A DNA stretch of 34,174 nucleotides, from the NCBI GenBank assembly GCA_003283025.1, contig QBYC01000011.1, forward strand, positions 1 to 34,174, in the 5' to 3' direction. Every line of letters begins with the position of its first letter. Positions within the stretch are counted from its first letter, which is position 1. Position numbers and translations under genes: made by a program. Shown here piece after piece: positions 2,934 through 10,998 of the stretch. The notes beneath the pieces were generated by a model. It did not search any database. It was not told where the DNA came from and worked only from the letters and a program-made list of their open reading frames with translations. The DNA comes from Pelagibacteraceae bacterium AG-325-C03 (GTDB lineage: Bacteria; Pseudomonadota; Alphaproteobacteria; Pelagibacterales; Pelagibacteraceae).

Positions 2934-4198
2934 TTTTTATTCAATATATTTCCAACATTGTAAAGCGAACCAAAACAAACGATGAGCTTCTTTTCTTTTG
3001 AAGAAATTTTTTTTAAGGCGTCGTCAAAGTTATTTGCTTTATCCACAGAGAGTTTATTTTTTAGTGCTATTTGATAAAGTTTATTAGCATCCATAGTTTT
3101 TTTTTCATTTTCAATTGGAATAGTGATAATTTTTTTAAATACATTCTTTAGTTGTTTTATAAATAAATTAGGCTCCTTATTTTTCATCATTGCCCAAATA
3201 CCATATTTTGAAATTTTTATAGACTTTAGATAATTTGAGAGATTTTTAGCATCAGTTTCAGCATGCGCTCCATCTAATAAAATTTTTTCACTTTTGTTCA
3301 GTCTATTTTTAATCTTTCCTTTATTTAAATATTGAAAACGACCTTGGAATGTAATCTTAGGTATTGCTTTTTCTATTACTTTTTTATTTATATTTAGATC
3401 TATCGCTATTTTTATAGCGTGACAAAGGTTTTCGAGTAATCCTTTTGAATAAATATTTTTTGAATTAAGTATTATTTTATTTTTATTATCTTGATAAAAG
3501 AAGCGCTTATTTTCTTTAATTAGTCTCCAAGTATTAGGATAATTTATTTCACTTTTATTTTTTTTAAGACACCTTTTAATTTTTTTTAAAATATAAGGTC
3601 TTTGTTTACCCACATATATACGAGTAAAATTACTTAGAAATCCTACTTTTTGATAAATCACTTCATCAAGAGTTTTTTTATTTTTACTTAAAAAGTTTAA
3701 ATGTTGTTTATTTATATTAACTACTACTTGAGCTTGCGGAAAATCAAAAATATTAGTTGAGTCTTTAGCAAAAAGTGCCCCGGCCTCAACTAGATGATAA
3801 TCAACATTCTGTTTTGAGGCATTCATTACATAAACGACCGTAAGGACCTCGAAAATAGTTAGTGGAACTTTTATTTTTTCAATTAGCTTAATTGTTTGTT
3901 TGATTTCTTGATGAGTAAGATATTTTTCACCCATCCAAAAACGCTCTTTTATATCTTTTATTGAAGGCGAAATATAAGCTGAAGTAGTTTGATTATTAGC
4001 TTCAATAAAATTTTTAACAGAGTGAAGAGTAGTAAACTTTCCACTAGAACCTAGGAAATTAATCACATTATTAAGTTTCTTTTCAGGATTATTTAATTTT
4101 TTAAGAACTAACTTAATTCTCGTTAAATCAAAATTTATATTTTTAGTAAAAAGCTTATGACTAGCTAACTGCTTGTAGAGACTTATTGACTGAGACAT
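2930..4198 (-). CDS. folC: Divergent folylpolyglutamate/dihydrofolate synthase
   Basis: Assigned to the Mur-ligase-like FolC family, which adds glutamate to (dihydro)folate with ATP. Support is position (after accD, as in other Alphaproteobacteria), length (422 residues) and partial motifs. The P-loop is GSSGKFT (residues 50-56) instead of the usual GTNGKGS; SPSIKDIKER resembles the TSPHL...ERI block; TIFEVLT (Glu117) matches the TxFExxT motif; DGAHAETDA near residue 310 matches DGAHNPxxA. The signature EVGLGGRLDATN has decayed to VEAGALFAKDSTN (137-149). The start overlaps accD by 38 bases. It is the last gene of the long minus-strand block. The family call is fairly safe; normal activity is less so. 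Confidence 0.78.
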   Translation of the reverse strand: MSQSISLYKQLASHKLFTKNINFDLTRIKLVLKKLNNPEKKLNNVINFLGSSGKFTTLHSVKNFIEANNQTTSAYISPSIKDIKERFWMGEKYLTHQEIKQTIKLIEKIKVPLTIFEVLTVVYVMNASKQNVDYHLVEAGALFAKDSTNIFDFPQAQVVVNINKQHLNFLSKNKKTLDEVIYQKVGFLSNFTRIYVGKQRPYILKKIKRCLKKNKSEINYPNTWRLIKENKRFFYQDNKNKIILNSKNIYSKGLLENLCHAIKIAIDLNINKKVIEKAIPKITFQGRFQYLNKGKIKNRLNKSEKILLDGAHAETDAKNLSNYLKSIKISKYGIWAMMKNKEPNLFIKQLKNVFKKIITIPIENEKKTMDANKLYQIALKNKLSVDKANNFDDALKKISSKEKKLIVCFGSLYNVGNILNKN

Positions 4199-5075
4199 TT
4201 GAATCTTGTTTAGCTTGAGCCTCTACTTTTTTCAATAAAACGTTTAATAACGTTCCAATTGTAGAGCTTAAGAATTGTCTTTCAACTACCAAATCAATTC
4301 CACCGTGATCTTTAACGTATTCAGCTGTTTGAAATTCATCAGGTAAAGTTTCTTTAACAGTATCCTGAATAACACGTCTTCCTGCAAAACCAATGGTTGC
4401 TTTCGGTTCAGCAATCAAAATATCACCTAACATTGCCCATGAAGCGGTTACGCCACCAGTCGTAGGGTCTGTAAGAACTACAAAGAAGGGAATATTTTTT
4501 TTCTTTAATTCATTTACAGCTAAAGCTGTTCTTGACATTTGCATCAAAGCAATCGACGACTCCATCATTCGCTGTCCTCCTGAACAACTAAAGAATATGT
4601 ATGGCACATTATTTGCTATGGCATTCTGAGCGCCAGCAATAAAAGCTTCTCCAGAAGCAGCACCAAATGAGCCTCCTATAAATCTAAAATCTTGTGCTCC
4701 AACTACTACATCAATGTTTTGAACTTTACCTTTAGCAATTAGAATAGCGTCATCTTGACCTGTGAGTTTACGTGCTGATTTTAATCGATCAGTATATTTT
4801 TTTTTGTCTTCAAAATTTATTGGATCATCTTTAGGTAAAGGAGTTTCAATTAATTCAAAATCTTTATTATCGAAAAAAGTCTCAAATCTTTCTCTACAGG
4901 TTAGTTTATGATGGGCACCACATTTAGGACATACTTTTTGGTTGGATGCCATATCTTCTTTGTATATCAAGTTTTTGCACCCACAAGTAGTCCACAGATT
5001 GTCTTGTGTTCTTGAAGATTTTTTTTCAAAAAGTGATTTAATTTTTGGCTTAATAAATTTTGTAATCCAATTCAT
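4161..5075 (-). CDS. accD: Acetyl-CoA carboxylase carboxyltransferase subunit beta
   Basis: Beta half of the carboxyltransferase that makes malonyl-CoA for fatty-acid synthesis; it pairs with AccA, which is not in the window. The crotonase-like core shows GGSFGAASGEAF, FFSCSGGQRMMES and DPTTGGVTASWAMLGD, and GFAGRRVIQ near the C-terminus, all typical of AccD. The N-terminal zinc ribbon is present but altered: Cys31-Gly-Cys33 replaces the usual CxxC, while the second pair Cys49-Pro-Lys-Cys52 is normal. Length 304 matches E. coli. It overlaps trpA by 4 bases (ATGA) and folC by 38 bases. Confidence 0.94.
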   Translation of the reverse strand: MNWITKFIKPKIKSLFEKKSSRTQDNLWTTCGCKNLIYKEDMASNQKVCPKCGAHHKLTCRERFETFFDNKDFELIETPLPKDDPINFEDKKKYTDRLKSARKLTGQDDAILIAKGKVQNIDVVVGAQDFRFIGGSFGAASGEAFIAGAQNAIANNVPYIFFSCSGGQRMMESSIALMQMSRTALAVNELKKKNIPFFVVLTDPTTGGVTASWAMLGDILIAEPKATIGFAGRRVIQDTVKETLPDEFQTAEYVKDHGGIDLVVERQFLSSTIGTLLNVLLKKVEAQAKQDSNVSVNKSLQAVS

Positions 5076-5872
5076 ATAATTTTTTTTTTTAGATTGTATA
5101 CAATTTTATCTAACTTTGTGACAGGATTTTGTCTCATTTTTAGTGAATTTGTAATTGTTTTACACAACATACTGCCTACAACTAATCCATTTGCTGATTT
5201 TAGCATAGAAATGGTTTTATCAGTAATTCCAAACCCTATTACAAGGTTCTTTTTTGGGTTGATTCTTTTGATCATATTATAATTATGAAGAATTTTTTTA
5301 GGTGAAACTTTTAGTTTTCCGCCTGTAGTTGATAACATTGATATATAATAAATCATATCATGTGAGTCTTTAATAATTTTTTTCATCCTATCTTTAGATG
5401 TAGTAGGAGATAAGAGTTGAATAAAATTTATTGATTTTTTTTTACATTTATTTGCAAATTTTTTATTTTCAGGATACGGGAGATCAACTATAATTAGACC
5501 ATCTACACCAGATGATTTGCAGCCTCTTAAAAAATTATTTTCACCTTTCTGGTAAATTAAATTAAAATAACCCATTAGAATAATTGGCTTGTTAGGATTA
5601 CTCTTTTTAAATTTTTTAACGATTTGAAATACATCATTTAATTTAATTCCATTTTTTAAAGCCCTATGTGAACTGACTTGTATTTGTCCCCCGTCAGCTA
5701 TTGGGGTGTTATGGGGAAATCCAAGTTCTAAAATATCCGCATGTTCAGAAATTTTATTAAGAATTTTGAGTGAATTTTTTTTAGTATTATCACCGGCTAC
5801 TGTATATGTTATTAGTGCAGCTCTTCTCTCTCTTTTACAATTATCAAAAGCTAGAGCAATCTTAGATTTCAT
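5072..5872 (-). CDS. trpA: Tryptophan synthase alpha subunit (variant interface)
   Basis: Cleaves indole-3-glycerol phosphate and passes indole to TrpB. Both catalytic acids are at the same numbers as in E. coli: Glu49 (ILELG) and Asp60 (IADG). Phosphate-site elements GFGI and the VVGS segment are retained, and the length (266) is normal. Oddities: loop 2 reads PHNTPIADGG, so Asp56 of the usual PFSDPxADGP is Thr; loop 6, usually SRxGVTG, reads MLSTTGG. Both loops talk to TrpB in the classic enzyme. It overlaps trpB and accD by 4 bases each, which implies translational coupling. I read it as a working but rewired alpha subunit. Confidence 0.88.
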   Translation of the reverse strand: MKSKIALAFDNCKRERRAALITYTVAGDNTKKNSLKILNKISEHADILELGFPHNTPIADGGQIQVSSHRALKNGIKLNDVFQIVKKFKKSNPNKPIILMGYFNLIYQKGENNFLRGCKSSGVDGLIIVDLPYPENKKFANKCKKKSINFIQLLSPTTSKDRMKKIIKDSHDMIYYISMLSTTGGKLKVSPKKILHNYNMIKRINPKKNLVIGFGITDKTISMLKSANGLVVGSMLCKTITNSLKMRQNPVTKLDKIVYNLKKKII

Positions 5873-7101
5873 CTTATGTAAGAACCCAATCTTTGTTTTA
5901 TGATATCTTTGTCTTTTTGACTATCTCCGCAACTATTGCAAATTATTATTTCTGAAGATTTTAATTTTGGTGCAATTCGTATTACCTCAGCAAAAGCATG
6001 AGATGGTTCCAGTGATGGTGAAATATTTTCAAGTCTAGAAACTAATTGATAGGCTTTTAGTGCATCTTCATCACTAGCTGAAGTATATTTGGCTCTTTTA
6101 GTATCTTTAAGAAAACAATGCAAAGGAGAAATTCCAGGATAATCTAATCCAGCTGAAATGGATTTTGTTGATCCTATTTGGCCTTCTTTATCTTGAATTA
6201 CGTATTGGGCTGCGCCATGAAGAATTCCAATTTTTGATCCATTAGTTAAAGGTGCAGCGTGAAGCTTACTATTTTTTGGACCACCGGCTTCAACACCAAT
6301 AAATTCAGCTTGTGTTTCCATGAATTCATTCCAAAATCCTACGGCAGAGCTTCCTCCGCCAACACAATTTATTAATTTAAGTTTTTTTGGAATTTTTCCA
6401 AACTCGTCTTTAACTTGCCTAATTAATTCTCTTGAAATCTGAGCAGTGCTCCAAGCACAAATTTTTATAAATATATTAGGACCAACAGTTGAACCTACAC
6501 ACATATGAGTTGTATCACAATTAGAAACCCAATATCTCATACATTCACTAACAGCATCTACAAGTGTTTGACTTCCGGTTGTTACAGGTACAATCTCAGC
6601 TCCATTTTTTTTTATAGCTTCAACGTTGGGTCTTTGTCTTTTTATATCTTTTGCACCCATAAAAATTTTACACTTAAGACCAAATTTTTTTGCAGCCATT
6701 GACAGCATTTTTCCAGCGTAGCCCGCACCTGTATCACCAACAATAAATTTCTTCCCCGCTTTTTTTGCAATTAAACAATGAACAGTTGCGTTATAAATTT
6801 TATGAGCTCCACCATTAGCTTCAGAAACAACTTTTGCATAAATCTGAGCTCCTCCTAGATGTTCTGTTAAATTTTCCAATTTAATAAAGGGTGTGGGTGC
6901 TCCCACATAAGCTTTAAAATAATGATTTCTTTCTTTAAGAAAATTTTTATCTTTTCTTAATTTAGAAAATAATTTTGTTAAATCATCAATTGGTTTTTTG
7001 AGCGTTTCAGGGATAAAATTTCCACCAAACCTTCCACCATACATAAAGTTTTCATCATGTTGGTCTATAAGAGGTATATTTTTTTTAATTTTTAAGCTCA
7101 T
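5869..7101 (-). CDS. trpB: Tryptophan synthase beta subunit, divergent
   Basis: PLP enzyme that joins indole and serine to make tryptophan. The frame is clearly TrpB (410 residues, FGGNFIPETL at the N-terminus, PLP lysine K101 in GGAHKIYNA, phosphate loop CVGGGSSAVG, SISAGLDYPG, TSASDEDAL). Several otherwise near-invariant residues differ. DTGAGYAG (123-130) replaces ETGAGQHG, so catalytic Glu109 is Asp and Gln114-His115 are Tyr-Ala. VVSEANG (91-97) replaces REDLNHT. Val181 stands at the place of Lys167. NSCGDSQKDKD replaces LSGRGDKD. It does not match TrpB2 either, which keeps ETGAGQW. It overlaps trpF by 17 bases. It could be an adapted tryptophan synthase or a PLP enzyme of shifted specificity. 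Confidence 0.85.
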   Translation of the reverse strand: MSLKIKKNIPLIDQHDENFMYGGRFGGNFIPETLKKPIDDLTKLFSKLRKDKNFLKERNHYFKAYVGAPTPFIKLENLTEHLGGAQIYAKVVSEANGGAHKIYNATVHCLIAKKAGKKFIVGDTGAGYAGKMLSMAAKKFGLKCKIFMGAKDIKRQRPNVEAIKKNGAEIVPVTTGSQTLVDAVSECMRYWVSNCDTTHMCVGSTVGPNIFIKICAWSTAQISRELIRQVKDEFGKIPKKLKLINCVGGGSSAVGFWNEFMETQAEFIGVEAGGPKNSKLHAAPLTNGSKIGILHGAAQYVIQDKEGQIGSTKSISAGLDYPGISPLHCFLKDTKRAKYTSASDEDALKAYQLVSRLENISPSLEPSHAFAEVIRIAPKLKSSEIIICNSCGDSQKDKDIIKQRLGSYIR

Positions 7102-7693
7102 TTATTTTGTTTATAAAATTTTTAATTTTAATGTGATCTTTGTAACCTAATTGACTTTCTAAACTAGATGATAAATCAAAAAAATTAACCCCTAATTTAT
7201 TAATATATCCTAAATTACGTTCAGAGATTGAGCCTGCTAAAGCATATTTTTCACCTTTAGGGAGCTTTATAATTAAATTTTTTGGAAATTCTAAAGACTT
7301 CTCCATGCTTGGTGTATCAAATAATATTATGTCAGCTTTATCAAATTCTTTATGTTTATGAATATCTTTTTCTTCTTTTACTTTAATAGCTTTAATGATT
7401 TTAAAGCCCATATTCTTAATCTCTTGAACTCTTTCTTTTGATTCTGATCCATGAAGTTGAATATAATCAAAATTTCCTATTAAATTCTTTTTTATAAACT
7501 CATCATTAGGATTTACTGTTACGGCAACAAAAGCAGAATTTTTTTTATCATATCTAGAAAGTATTTTTATATCTGAAAGATTTACATTTCGAGGGGATTT
7601 TTCATAAAAAACAAAACCCAAATAATTTATTTTGAGATCAATACATAGTTGAACATCTCTAGTTGGATTTAAACCGCAAATTTTTATTTTCAT
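7085..7693 (-). CDS. trpF: Phosphoribosylanthranilate isomerase
   Basis: Catalyses the Amadori rearrangement of phosphoribosylanthranilate, the step before indole-glycerol phosphate synthase. The TIM-barrel signatures KICGL (catalytic Cys6), GFVFYEKSPR, YIQLHGSE and LFDTPS (the catalytic Asp) are visible in 202 residues, the usual length. The glycine-rich GGTGxxFDW loop after the catalytic Asp is absent, and later motifs read AGSISERN and DLSSSLE rather than AGGLxPxN and DVSSGVE. It starts one base inside the pyrF stop and overlaps trpB by 17 bases. The assignment is strong from context plus the catalytic residues. Confidence 0.88.
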   Translation of the reverse strand: MKIKICGLNPTRDVQLCIDLKINYLGFVFYEKSPRNVNLSDIKILSRYDKKNSAFVAVTVNPNDEFIKKNLIGNFDYIQLHGSESKERVQEIKNMGFKIIKAIKVKEEKDIHKHKEFDKADIILFDTPSMEKSLEFPKNLIIKLPKGEKYALAGSISERNLGYINKLGVNFFDLSSSLESQLGYKDHIKIKNFINKINELKN

Positions 7694-8630: not shown

Positions 8631-10352
8631 TTATTTTTCTTTTTTAGCTTTTTTACCAATTGCTTTTTCGAAAATACCTTTAAGCGTAGCTCCTGATTTA
8701 GTTGCTCCTTCTCCGAATTTAGCTATTAAAGATTTTTCTTCATCTATCTGAGCTGCTTTTACGCTAAGTTTTACTCTTCTATTTTGTAGATCTAATTCTG
8801 TAATTTTAGCGTCTAAGGCATTCCCTTGAGAAAATACCTCCGGTCTAGCATCAGCACTGTCTTTTGCTAAGTCAGATTTTTTTATGGTTACAATCAATTT
8901 TTTATCTTTGTCGATTGAAACTTTAAGACCTGTTTTTAAAACTTCATGAACTCTTGTAGTAATTATACTTCCAACTTTTTTCTTATTATCTTTAAACCAG
9001 TCTAGAGGATCTCTTTCTAATGCTCTTTTAGAAAATCTTATTTTTTCATCTTTAATTTCAATAATTTTAACCTCTATAATATCGTTTTTTTTGAACTTTT
9101 TTAAGTCATCGATGTTCTCCTGATACGATATTTCTTTATAATGCAACATCCCTGACAATTTTGAGTCAGTTAATTCTCCAAATATGGCTTTATCAGTGAT
9201 ATTTTTAATTTTGATTTTATTAACTTTATCTATTTGATTTTTAATTTTTTCCCATGGATTTTCCAAAGTGGCTTTGTAGGATAGAGATATTCTTTTTGAT
9301 GCCTTTTCTATATTTACAATTTTAAATTTTATTTTTTGAGAAACGGACAAAACTTTACCCGGATTAATATTTCTGTTAGTCCAATCTAACTCTGAATTAT
9401 GTATCAAACCCTCTATTCCATCCTCAATTTTTACAAAACATCCGTAATCCATTATTTTTGTAACTGTTCCTTTATAAAATTCTCCAACTTTGTATTTCTG
9501 TTCAATACTTTCATAAGGATCTTCTGTAAGCGCTTTAACAGATGCAGACACACGATTAGTTTTTTCGTCAATTTTTGTAATTTTAACTCTAATTTTTTGA
9601 CCAATTGATACTAGGTCTGCAGGTTTTTTTACTCTACCGTGACTTAAATCTGAAACATGTAAAAGTGCGTCTATACCATTTATATCTAAAAATATTCCCC
9701 AATCAGTAGTTGCTTTAACTATTGCATTTTCAACAATGTCACCTTCTTTAATATTTTTGAGCGCCTCAACTATTTCTGCATTTTTACTTTTTTCAATTAC
9801 TGCTCTTCTAGATACACAAACATTACCTCTATTCTTGTCTATTCTAGTGGCTATTACTTTTACGGGAGTATTCATTAAGTGATCAATTTTTTTTAAAGGT
9901 CTTACGTCTATTTGTGAAGAAGGCATAAAACATGGCAAGCCCTCTACATTAGCTATAAAGCCACCTTTGATTTTACCTGTAATGTATCCAGTCATCTCTT
10001 CTTGCGTTTCAAAAACTTTTTCCATCTTTTTCCAAGCTTTCATTTTTCTAGCTTTATCCCTTGAAATGACTATTTCACCTTTAAAACTTTCAATTCTTTC
10101 AAGATAAACATCAATTTGTGATCCTACTTTTAATTTAGCTAGTTCATCATCATTTTTAAATTCTTCAATTGGAATCATCCCTTCCATTTTTGCTTTACAA
10201 TCTACTACTATGAAATTTTTAGTAATTTCGGTGACAGTAGCTTTTATTATTTCGTTCTCTTTAAGTGTGCGATCTTTGAAATCTTTTTCTAATAAGTTTT
10301 GAAACTCTTTGTGAAGAGAGCTCATTTTTTTTATTTCTTGTTCAGTTGCCAT
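8631..10352 (-). CDS. rpsA: 30S ribosomal protein S1
   Basis: RNA-binding ribosomal protein needed to load structured or poorly Shine-Dalgarno-led mRNAs. Six S1/OB repeats can be laid out at about residues 32-108, 117-187, 202-275, 289-368, 378-452 and 462-538. Repeat 3 (TDWGIFLDINGIDALLHVSD) and repeat 4 (MDYGCFVKIEDGIEGLIHNSE) are the most canonical. A Lys-rich tail ends the 573-residue protein, close to the E. coli length of 557. It overlaps the end of cmk by 11 bases. Most genes here lack a clear Shine-Dalgarno sequence, which fits reliance on S1 (inference). Confidence 0.95.
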   Translation of the reverse strand: MATEQEIKKMSSLHKEFQNLLEKDFKDRTLKENEIIKATVTEITKNFIVVDCKAKMEGMIPIEEFKNDDELAKLKVGSQIDVYLERIESFKGEIVISRDKARKMKAWKKMEKVFETQEEMTGYITGKIKGGFIANVEGLPCFMPSSQIDVRPLKKIDHLMNTPVKVIATRIDKNRGNVCVSRRAVIEKSKNAEIVEALKNIKEGDIVENAIVKATTDWGIFLDINGIDALLHVSDLSHGRVKKPADLVSIGQKIRVKITKIDEKTNRVSASVKALTEDPYESIEQKYKVGEFYKGTVTKIMDYGCFVKIEDGIEGLIHNSELDWTNRNINPGKVLSVSQKIKFKIVNIEKASKRISLSYKATLENPWEKIKNQIDKVNKIKIKNITDKAIFGELTDSKLSGMLHYKEISYQENIDDLKKFKKNDIIEVKIIEIKDEKIRFSKRALERDPLDWFKDNKKKVGSIITTRVHEVLKTGLKVSIDKDKKLIVTIKKSDLAKDSADARPEVFSQGNALDAKITELDLQNRRVKLSVKAAQIDEEKSLIAKFGEGATKSGATLKGIFEKAIGKKAKKEK

Positions 10353-10998
10353 ATTTTTTATTAATCACTATTTCAACATGTCTTGACATTTTAGCCACCA
10401 TTTCATGTTTATTTAATTTTCCGGTGTCAACCACTACAGCATTTTTATGTATTTTTAAAGGACTATGTTTCCTTTTTTTGTCTGAAATATTCCTTAATTT
10501 TAGAGCTTTTTTTACACTATTCAAATTAACTTTTAAGTCATTTTTTTTTAATTCTTTATATCTTCTTTTTGCAGCAGTATTTAAATTGCAAATGAAAAAA
10601 AATTTAACATCAGAATTTGGTAAAATTTTTGTGGAAGCATCTCTTCCTTCTAATACACAACCTTTATTATTTTTAATAAATTGTTTTTGATACTTTTTTA
10701 AAATATTTCTAATACTTAGAATTTTTGCAATTTTAGCACTATGTGTTGATATTTTTTGTGTATGTAATCTTATTTGTTTTAATTTATTATAGTTTAAATT
10801 TTTAAATTTTTTTTCAATAAAATTAGTCTTATTATGAGGACGATGTTTTATAATTAAGTAACTTACGTATCTGTAAAGTAATCCACTTGAAAGAAAAACA
10901 AGATTATATTTTTTTGCAATTAATTTAGCTCCTGTTGATTTTCCGGTAGCAGCACCGCCGTCACAAGTAATTTTTAAATTTTTATTTTTGAGTTTCAA
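10342..10998 (-). CDS. cmk: Cytidylate kinase
   Basis: Phosphorylates CMP/dCMP. The P-loop GGAATGKST sits at about residues 14-22 (usually GPSGxGKxT), followed by FLSSGLLYRYV, the counterpart of LDSGAxYR, and LEGRDASTKILPNSDVK, the counterpart of GRDxGTxVFPxA. Length 218 is normal. The sequence is very Lys/Asn-rich and loosely conserved, like others in this block. The cmk-rpsA-ihfB order supports the call. It overlaps aroA by 17 bases and rpsA by 11 bases. Confidence 0.87.
   Translation of the reverse strand: MKLKNKNLKITCDGGAATGKSTGAKLIAKKYNLVFLSSGLLYRYVSYLIIKHRPHNKTNFIEKKFKNLNYNKLKQIRLHTQKISTHSAKIAKILSIRNILKKYQKQFIKNNKGCVLEGRDASTKILPNSDVKFFFICNLNTAAKRRYKELKKNDLKVNLNSVKKALKLRNISDKKRKHSPLKIHKNAVVVDTGKLNKHEMVAKMSRHVEIVINKKYGN

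Follow-up and report, generated by a model that had tools for sequence, protein, structure and literature searches.

Joint absence of both halves of the αAsp56–βLys167 salt bridge from most sampled tryptophan synthases of SAR11 bacteria

Interface and catalytic residues of a SAR11 tryptophan synthase

The window analysed here, a contig of 34,174 nucleotides (QBYC01000011.1) from the SAR11 genome Pelagibacteraceae bacterium AG-325-C03 (972 kb, 50 contigs, 79% complete), encodes the α and β subunits of tryptophan synthase in neighbouring genes, trpA and trpB, which overlap by four bases (ATGA). Tryptophan synthase serves as the textbook case of two active sites linked by allostery and by a channel. 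Its interface bridge, formed between αAsp56 and βLys167, has been studied to a large extent in mutants of the enterobacterial protein (PMC6608616). A first-pass annotation assigned TrpA Thr56 and TrpB Val181 to these two positions and named their codons; our alignments to E. coli K-12 TrpA and TrpB, which are free of gaps around both sites (LELGIPFSDPLADG / LELGFPHNTPIADG and SGSATLKDACNEALRDW / TGSQTLVDAVSECMRYW), agree with it. The three residues on either side of TrpA 56 include no acid, and those flanking TrpB 181 include no lysine or arginine; sliding the alignment slightly would therefore not restore the charged pair. With both regions ungapped and no substitute nearby, a shifted alignment or a relocated pair is ruled out.

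In single-chain AlphaFold models, Thr56 lies in the loop that connects strand 47-51 to helix 62-73 (αL2; mean predicted local distance difference test score, pLDDT, 93.7) and Val181 starts helix 180-194 at the position of βH6 (mean pLDDT 93.2). The proteins are 26% (TrpA) and 36% (TrpB) identical to those of E. coli, and their top Foldseek matches are tryptophan synthase chains (TrpA, 5ey5_A, query TM-score (TMq) 0.91; TrpB, 5t6m_C, TMq 0.90). Both catalytic acids of TrpA, Glu49 and Asp60, are present and its loop 6 is altered (SRAGVTG in E. coli, SMLSTTG here) though Thr183-Gly184 is kept, as the annotation had described for the acids and the loop.

TrpA scores 210.4 bits against TIGR00262 (curated cut-off 102.35) and TrpB 397 bits against TIGR00263, barely above a curated cut-off of 392.45 that 72 of the 197 genomes searched in the order pass. 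A TrpB2-like identity (TIGR01415, trpB_rel) is ruled out by a score of 99 bits against a cut-off of 518.85. The closest named records of TrpB are Pelagibacteraceae, with Ca. Pelagibacter ubique HIMB058 at 92% (among the best 80 of 272 loci). A search of the 79% complete assembly found one trpB, one trpA and no second canonical trpBA, and G009, a complete genome in one contig from the same family group, likewise has one trpB. The annotation had named a shifted alignment and a second canonical trpBA as grounds for doubting it; neither was found within what was searched.

Occurrence in SAR11 and other Pseudomonadota

We collected trpBA across the family, order, class and phylum, together with 80 of the 272 named SAR11 loci. 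Loci without TrpA in the retrieved stretch (20 of 312) were left out, as were several of 39 further loci that miss one gene, the rows L151 and L320 (a spurious TrpA match in G394) and the row for E. coli. In two SAR11 rows TrpA is truncated, and these do not enter the counts for position 56. The set from outside SAR11 is a non-random one, drawn from best and weak TIGR00263 matches, and its 84 rows, in which two genomes are duplicated, represent 82 genomes in 56 family groups with trpB and trpA close together.

Among 173 distinct pairs from SAR11 (Pelagibacterales), 162 are uncharged at both sites, 11 combine an acid with lysine and none is mixed. All 82 other genomes pair an acid with a base: 77 have Asp/Lys, four Glu/Lys and one Asp/Arg. 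The joint loss in SAR11 is beyond chance (162 of 173 pairs against none of the 82 genomes), and the annotation's claim that both halves disappear together therefore stands. Its accompanying remark that losing one residue would be drift does not, since no single loss occurs among the 82 genomes and the residues that changed there kept their charge. Nor is this a feature of one window, as it had been presented, but one of most pairs sampled in the order, accompanied by a wider remodelling of TrpB.

A class-wide scan gave full-length, above-cut-off, best-per-genome TrpB matches of 549-658 bits to TIGR00263 outside SAR11, and scores of 393 and 397 bits for the two SAR11 genomes drawn; in the remaining genomes the match was partial, weak and below the cut-off (for example G354, 151 bits) or absent. 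Three alphaproteobacterial genomes have trpB with no trpA found, namely G362 (L144, 99% complete), G358 (L149, 78%) and G310 (L138, 87%), and β167 is serine in the first two and lysine in the third. As a separate observation, the trpB match contains one in-frame TAA in three relatives of the window (G025:C18, G042:C24 and G082:C51), which may reflect sequencing error or decay.

SAR11 types and the number of loss events

The SAR11 pairs fall into five types. Type I (L071-L073) has the canonical Asp/Lys, and types II (L074-L076) and III (L032, L033, L273-L275) have Glu/Lys. Type IV, which includes the window and most sampled SAR11 pairs, has Thr, Ala or Cys at α56, Val or Ile at β167 and Asp at the position of βGlu109, and type V (L034-L036) has Thr/Leu and keeps Glu109. 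A TrpB tree built on 54 rows, its bootstrap short of full convergence, places type IV in a single, strongly supported group whose branch measures about 1.0 change per site, with types II and III as its sister group and type V separate on a long branch. IV and V are not joined in the TrpA tree either, at a fork it does not resolve.

The best trees of both proteins require two joint losses. A TrpB tree uniting IV and V is not rejected (approximately unbiased test, p-AU 0.364), and with a single loss not rejected we do not claim two independent ones as established. An independent-pairs test has two pairs available (p 0.5). With one or two loss events the 173 pairs are not independent observations, and their perfect association must not count as 173 observations. 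In the covariation check suggested in the annotation, the charges at the two sites are present or absent together in all sampled SAR11 pairs and other genomes, but the joint losses number only one or two.

Table 1. Features of the window. Positions are those of the whole stretch; SAR11 types are defined in the text.
Feature	Position	Strand	Basis and remarks
trpA, tryptophan synthase α subunit, neutral-interface type	5072..5872	(-)	266 aa; TIGR00262, E. coli alignment, AlphaFold, Foldseek
trpB, tryptophan synthase β subunit, neutral-interface type	5869..7101	(-)	410 aa; TIGR00263, AlphaFold, Foldseek
TrpA Thr56 codon (E. coli Asp56; loop αL2)	5705..5707	(-)	alignment; loop in model
TrpB Val181 codon (E. 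coli Lys167; helix βH6)	6559..6561	(-)	alignment; helix 180-194 in model
TrpA Asp60 codon, catalytic acid, retained	5693..5695	(-)	type IV: Asp in 158 of 159 readable rows, Glu in 1
TrpA Glu49 codon, catalytic acid, retained	5726..5728	(-)	type IV: 159 of 159 readable rows
TrpA loop 6 MLSTTGGK, residues 179-186	5315..5338	(-)	Ser in place of Gly181; Thr183-Gly184 kept
TrpB Ser185 codon (E. coli Asn171, another reported αAsp56 partner)	6547..6549	(-)	alignment; contact from excerpts of PMC5573416
TrpB Asp123 codon (E. coli Glu109, catalytic)	6733..6735	(-)	alignment
TrpB Asp320 codon, at E. coli Asp305, intra-β latch, retained	6142..6144	(-)	alignment
trpF, upstream neighbour	7085..7693	(-)	PRK01222 models, best 135 bits, under curated cut-offs; order as in PMC2395257
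accD, downstream neighbour	4161..5075	(-)	TIGR00515, 309 bits, slightly under cut-off 317

Two salt bridges and the wider remodelling of TrpB

The closed state of the β subunit has another salt bridge, βArg141–βAsp305 (PMC9512447), and the two bridges are distributed unevenly over the SAR11 types. Type IV lacks the αAsp56–βLys167 bridge that characterizes the canonical allosteric α2β2 enzyme and has the residues of the intra-β one (Arg141 in 161 of 161 rows, Asp305 in 160 of 161), together with αThr183 (158 of 158 readable rows). A basic residue at β141 with Asp305 is found in 161 of 162 pairs of types IV and V taken together. In all eight pairs of types II and III, which have Glu56 and Lys167, residue β305 is Asn, Gln or Thr, and type II also has Leu141. 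Both bridges are present in type I (3/3) and in 54 of the 55 other rows of the tally. Over the 173 SAR11 pairs, 161 have the intra-β bridge only, eight the inter-subunit bridge only, three both and one neither. This pattern, with three deep lineages as its basis, suggests that each divergent SAR11 enzyme surrendered one bridge and retained the other.

Replacement extends well beyond the bridges. Compared with 57 canonical rows, 43 of 133 near-invariant TrpB positions are replaced in 132 type IV rows, and so are eight of 41 in TrpA, three of which (54, 56 and 181) lie in loops L2 and L6. At β167 type IV has Val in 157 rows and Ile in four, and βGlu109, which helps the attack of indole (PMC9512447) and goes unmentioned in the annotation, is Asp in all 161, preserving the carboxylate. 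The lysine that binds pyridoxal phosphate, Lys87 in the motif GAHK, is present in 160 of the 161 rows with one unreadable; His86 and Glu350 are kept, and the type IV rows displayed in the alignment also retain the TGAG loop. Excerpts of PMC9512447 describe Gln114 and Arg148 as helping, through hydrogen bonds, to hold the closed β state in Salmonella; both are replaced in type IV, and Asn145 is kept in 160 of 161 rows. Gln114 is also Met in six of 55 other rows.

Excerpts of PMC5573416 name αAsp56–βAsn171 and Asn171–Tyr279, the gate, as interacting pairs. Within SAR11, β171 is Asn with Asp56 (3/3), Thr in types II and III with Glu56 (8/8), Ser in type IV (161/161) and Ala in type V (3/3). The four Glu/Lys genomes from outside SAR11 retain Asn171, so this tie between β171 and α56 is not universal.

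Exchange of trpBA as a unit

All 15 longer loci examined, with all five types included, have trpBA in the same slot, between pyrF (or trpF) and accD. When type V locus L155 is compared with type IV locus L308, the aroA, cmk, rpsA, pyrF, accD and folC products are 80-97% identical, against 26% for TrpB and 29% for TrpA, and the DNA similarity breaks off where accD meets trpA and returns at the trpB/pyrF junction, ten bases into pyrF. Type III locus L274 and type IV locus L280 give a similar picture (rpsA 93%, accD 94%, pyrF 78%; TrpB 35%, TrpA 26%); there trpF, at 62%, is less similar than its fellow neighbours and DNA similarity breaks upstream of trpB, so part of trpF may have moved along with trpBA. 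The reverse case is seen between L307 and L308, where the flanks are 31-41% identical, TrpB 85% and TrpA 70%. Of 16 genus groups, six contain more than one TrpB cluster (66% threshold).

The distances of TrpA and those of TrpB are correlated (r 0.93 in an all-against-all comparison of 170 gene pairs), identity between charge classes is at most 43% for either protein, and no exchange of a single subunit between charge classes was seen among the 170 pairs. Homologous-recombination exchange of core genes in Pelagibacter is known in general (excerpts of PMC12416821). The housekeeping genes that flank trpBA look mosaic too: L153 and L302 are 73-91% identical from aroA to trpF, but 46% in accD and 30% in folC. 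Carriage of trpBA by phage was considered as a vehicle and rejected: the viral collection yielded no relative, and in the phage collection 21 putative phage records match, all below 60% identity.

Evidence for a probable working complex

Against eight relatives, the ratio of non-synonymous to synonymous substitution rates (dN/dS) of the window trpA and trpB is 0.04-0.10, which with the open frames rules out a pseudogene or decay. The genome of the window has an indole-glycerol phosphate (IGP) synthase, as do all 40 high-quality genomes of the family; across all family genomes the count is 83 of 99.

Covariation between the subunits was analysed in 159 type IV pairs (effective number 84). Pairs joining interface stretches account for seven of the top 30 where 0.5 are expected, the other 23 not joining two such stretches, and a control in which the interface sets were circularly shifted reached seven in one of 2000 draws. 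The interface stretches follow the classic structures, and among them the contacts of β18 and those of αL2/L6 with βH6 are supported by excerpts of PMC6608616 and PMC5573416. Among the strongest signals are α109–β296, α108–β18, α62 and α58 with β164, and α63–β22, and the first form of the analysis gave the same leading pairs. Shuffling the pairing lowers the top scores to 2.8-3.5 from 7.6; shuffling also removes relatedness, and we count only the placement at the interface as evidence. Position α56 covaries with β18 and β77, partly following clades, and a role for these as its new partners is a lead only.

Interpretation

Because of purifying selection and of covariation enriched at the α/β interface, a working, rewired tryptophan synthase is the most likely reading. 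We think it probable, though well short of assured, that the window encodes the sole functional α2β2 tryptophan synthase of its genome, deeply divergent and with a neutral instead of a charged contact between TrpA L2 and TrpB H6. In such an enzyme TrpA would still make indole from indole-glycerol phosphate and hand it to TrpB. Apolar packing of Thr, Cys or Ala56 against Val181 and the start of TrpB would replace the αAsp56–βLys167 bridge, and the open-to-closed switch would be timed by the remaining latches, βArg141–βAsp305 and αThr183–αAsp60. The allostery is likely to differ from that of the classic enzyme. The annotation had proposed a co-evolved, rewired complex with different allostery. 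Rewiring finds support here, and the difference in allostery is an expectation read from the residues; co-evolution gains from the parallel distances, the exchange as a unit and the interface covariation, and loses from the small number of events (p-AU 0.364; two independent pairs, p 0.5).

A single closed-state latch may be enough, as the either/or pattern of bridges across the SAR11 types suggests. The latch in use would have to match in both subunits, so that trpB and trpA would be inherited and exchanged together. We advance only tentatively the stronger proposal that either latch (α56–β167 or intra-β 141–305) can run the closed-state switch and that SAR11 swaps sealed trpBA cassettes because the latch classes are incompatible.

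Several observations weigh against a neutral, rewired contact and the either/or use of latches. Joint losses number one or two, and the two-site covariation is statistically weak. High-scoring covarying pairs such as α260–β250 and α3–β238 lie off the interface as defined here, a definition that published excerpts support in part. The Protein Data Bank (PDB) holds complexes of a Salmonella βK167T mutant, so the bridge is dispensable for assembly even in the classic enzyme. The type IV pair L201, with Met at β305, has neither bridge, where a sequencing or alignment slip is possible, and the alphaproteobacterial L134 (G291) has Asn305 despite an intact Asp56/Lys167. Exchange can also exceed trpBA, with trpF, accD, folC and pyrF mosaic as well.

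The small number of events leaves a lesser but serious chance that ancestry alone accounts for the pattern, one ancient and fast-evolving trpBA having lost both residues by chance and then been passed on by inheritance and horizontal spread, with the two sites functionally unlinked. The tree test that does not reject a union of the two neutral types, the two available independent pairs and the loss of many TrpB residues away from the interface are all as this history would have it. It fits less well that the pair is conserved or swapped charge for charge in 82 of 82 genomes outside SAR11, that two long-branch SAR11 types retained Glu56 with Lys167, and that β171, another reported Asp56 contact, changed in step within SAR11. 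We regard as unlikely an uncoupled enzyme, in which tryptophan is still made and interface charges drifted as allostery or channelling was relaxed or lost in a streamlined genome. Low dN/dS, enriched interface covariation and the absence of lone-subunit exchange between charge classes in 170 pairs speak against it, as does a β167 that is fixed as an apolar residue while Arg141, Asp305, αThr183 and αAsp60 are kept; by comparison, the alphaproteobacteria with no trpA found have Ser (two) or Lys (one) at this position. Loosened coupling would, on the other hand, accommodate the three of eight lost TrpA positions in loops L2 and L6 and a TrpB without the Salmonella closed-state holders Gln114 and Arg148 (excerpts of PMC9512447).

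The extent of the TrpB changes also makes altered chemistry conceivable, a divergent TrpB using another amino-acid donor or acceptor with tryptophan synthesis only part of its role: 43 of the 133 near-invariant positions differ, and active-site residues are replaced, namely Glu109 (Asp in 161/161), Gln114 (Tyr or Met), His115 (mostly Ala), Asn236 (Ser) and Arg379 (mostly Asp). We judge it quite improbable, given that this is the only trpB found in the genome and lies within trpF-trpB-trpA, that TrpA retains both catalytic acids, that IGP synthase is encoded in all 40 high-quality family genomes, that position 109 is still a carboxylate and that the single trpB of Ca. P. ubique is argued to be functional in excerpts of PMC2395257.

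Relation to known systems and significance

With the canonical TrpA/TrpB1 of Salmonella and E. coli (TIGR00262/TIGR00263) the SAR11 enzyme shares the fold (TMq 0.90-0.91) and the gene pair, αGlu49 and αAsp60, αThr183-Gly184, and in the β subunit Lys87, His86, Glu350 and Arg141–Asp305. Type IV differs at αAsp56 (Thr/Ala/Cys), βLys167 (Val/Ile), βAsn171 (Ser) and αGly181 (mostly Ser), as well as at βGlu109 (Asp), Gln114 (Tyr/Met), His115 (mostly Ala) and Asn236 (Ser). The Salmonella βK167T mutant (PDB 6duc, 7ki7, 7lgx, 7lt4; entry titles) likewise has an uncharged residue in place of Lys167, but as a one-subunit laboratory mutant, whereas the SAR11 change is natural and involves both subunits and many other positions. 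The plTrpB of Pelodictyon luteolum, a natural stand-alone TrpB, resembles the SAR11 protein in its unusual coupling to TrpA (excerpts of PMC11917138); it was found through six other residues, and K167, D56 and SAR11 are absent from that text (PMC11917138).

SAR11 trpB1 was reported as a distinct cluster in the Sargasso Sea metagenome in 2008 (PMC2395257). The excerpts of that report describe a tree cluster, with no salt bridge, TrpA residues, other types in the same slot or swapping. The distinctness of SAR11 trpB is thus already known, and for the residue pattern and the swap of the pair we found no earlier report: in open-licence literature on tryptophan synthase, SAR11 and Lys167/Asp56 neither the joint loss nor a trpBA swap was found, nor, in Pelagibacter, a description of two-gene replacement by alleles this distant.

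SAR11 are the most common bacteria of the ocean, and a textbook enzyme there lacks both halves of its classic contact. Within one order and in one genomic slot, the two best-known bridges of the closed state occur in three of their four possible combinations (a single doubtful case would be the fourth). Natural enzymes can thus be used to test a long-standing question, through which contact the signal passes and whether either contact can replace the other. In these abundant ocean bacteria the two subunits are replaced as a matched pair. The same sequences are a warning that catalytic and interface residues of TrpB that seem invariant are not.

Gene neighbourhood and minor observations

The minus strand of the window carries folC, accD, trpA, trpB, trpF, pyrF, a 93-residue frame in the place of HU/himD and rpsA, an order that matches the one published for Ca. 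Pelagibacter ubique (excerpts of PMC2395257); the 93-residue frame has no NCBIfam match at the limit used. In L155 and L156 (group g2) trpB directly follows pyrF and there is no trpF frame in the cluster, which is the only part looked at. AccD alleles diverge among relatives: that of L155 (L155:4243-5205 (-)) reaches 116 bits with TIGR00515, where the window's has 309, and that of L179 is 33% identical to the window's, whereas the TrpA of L179 is 84% identical. In genus group g9, aroA and cmk, which are separate in the window, form a single frame of 665 residues (L162:10655-12649 (-)), and a frame of the same length with an aroA match occurs in L160 (L160:10096-12090 (-)) of this group. Opposite cmk in the window, a plus-strand frame of 114 residues (10346-10690 (+)) is probably a shadow frame.

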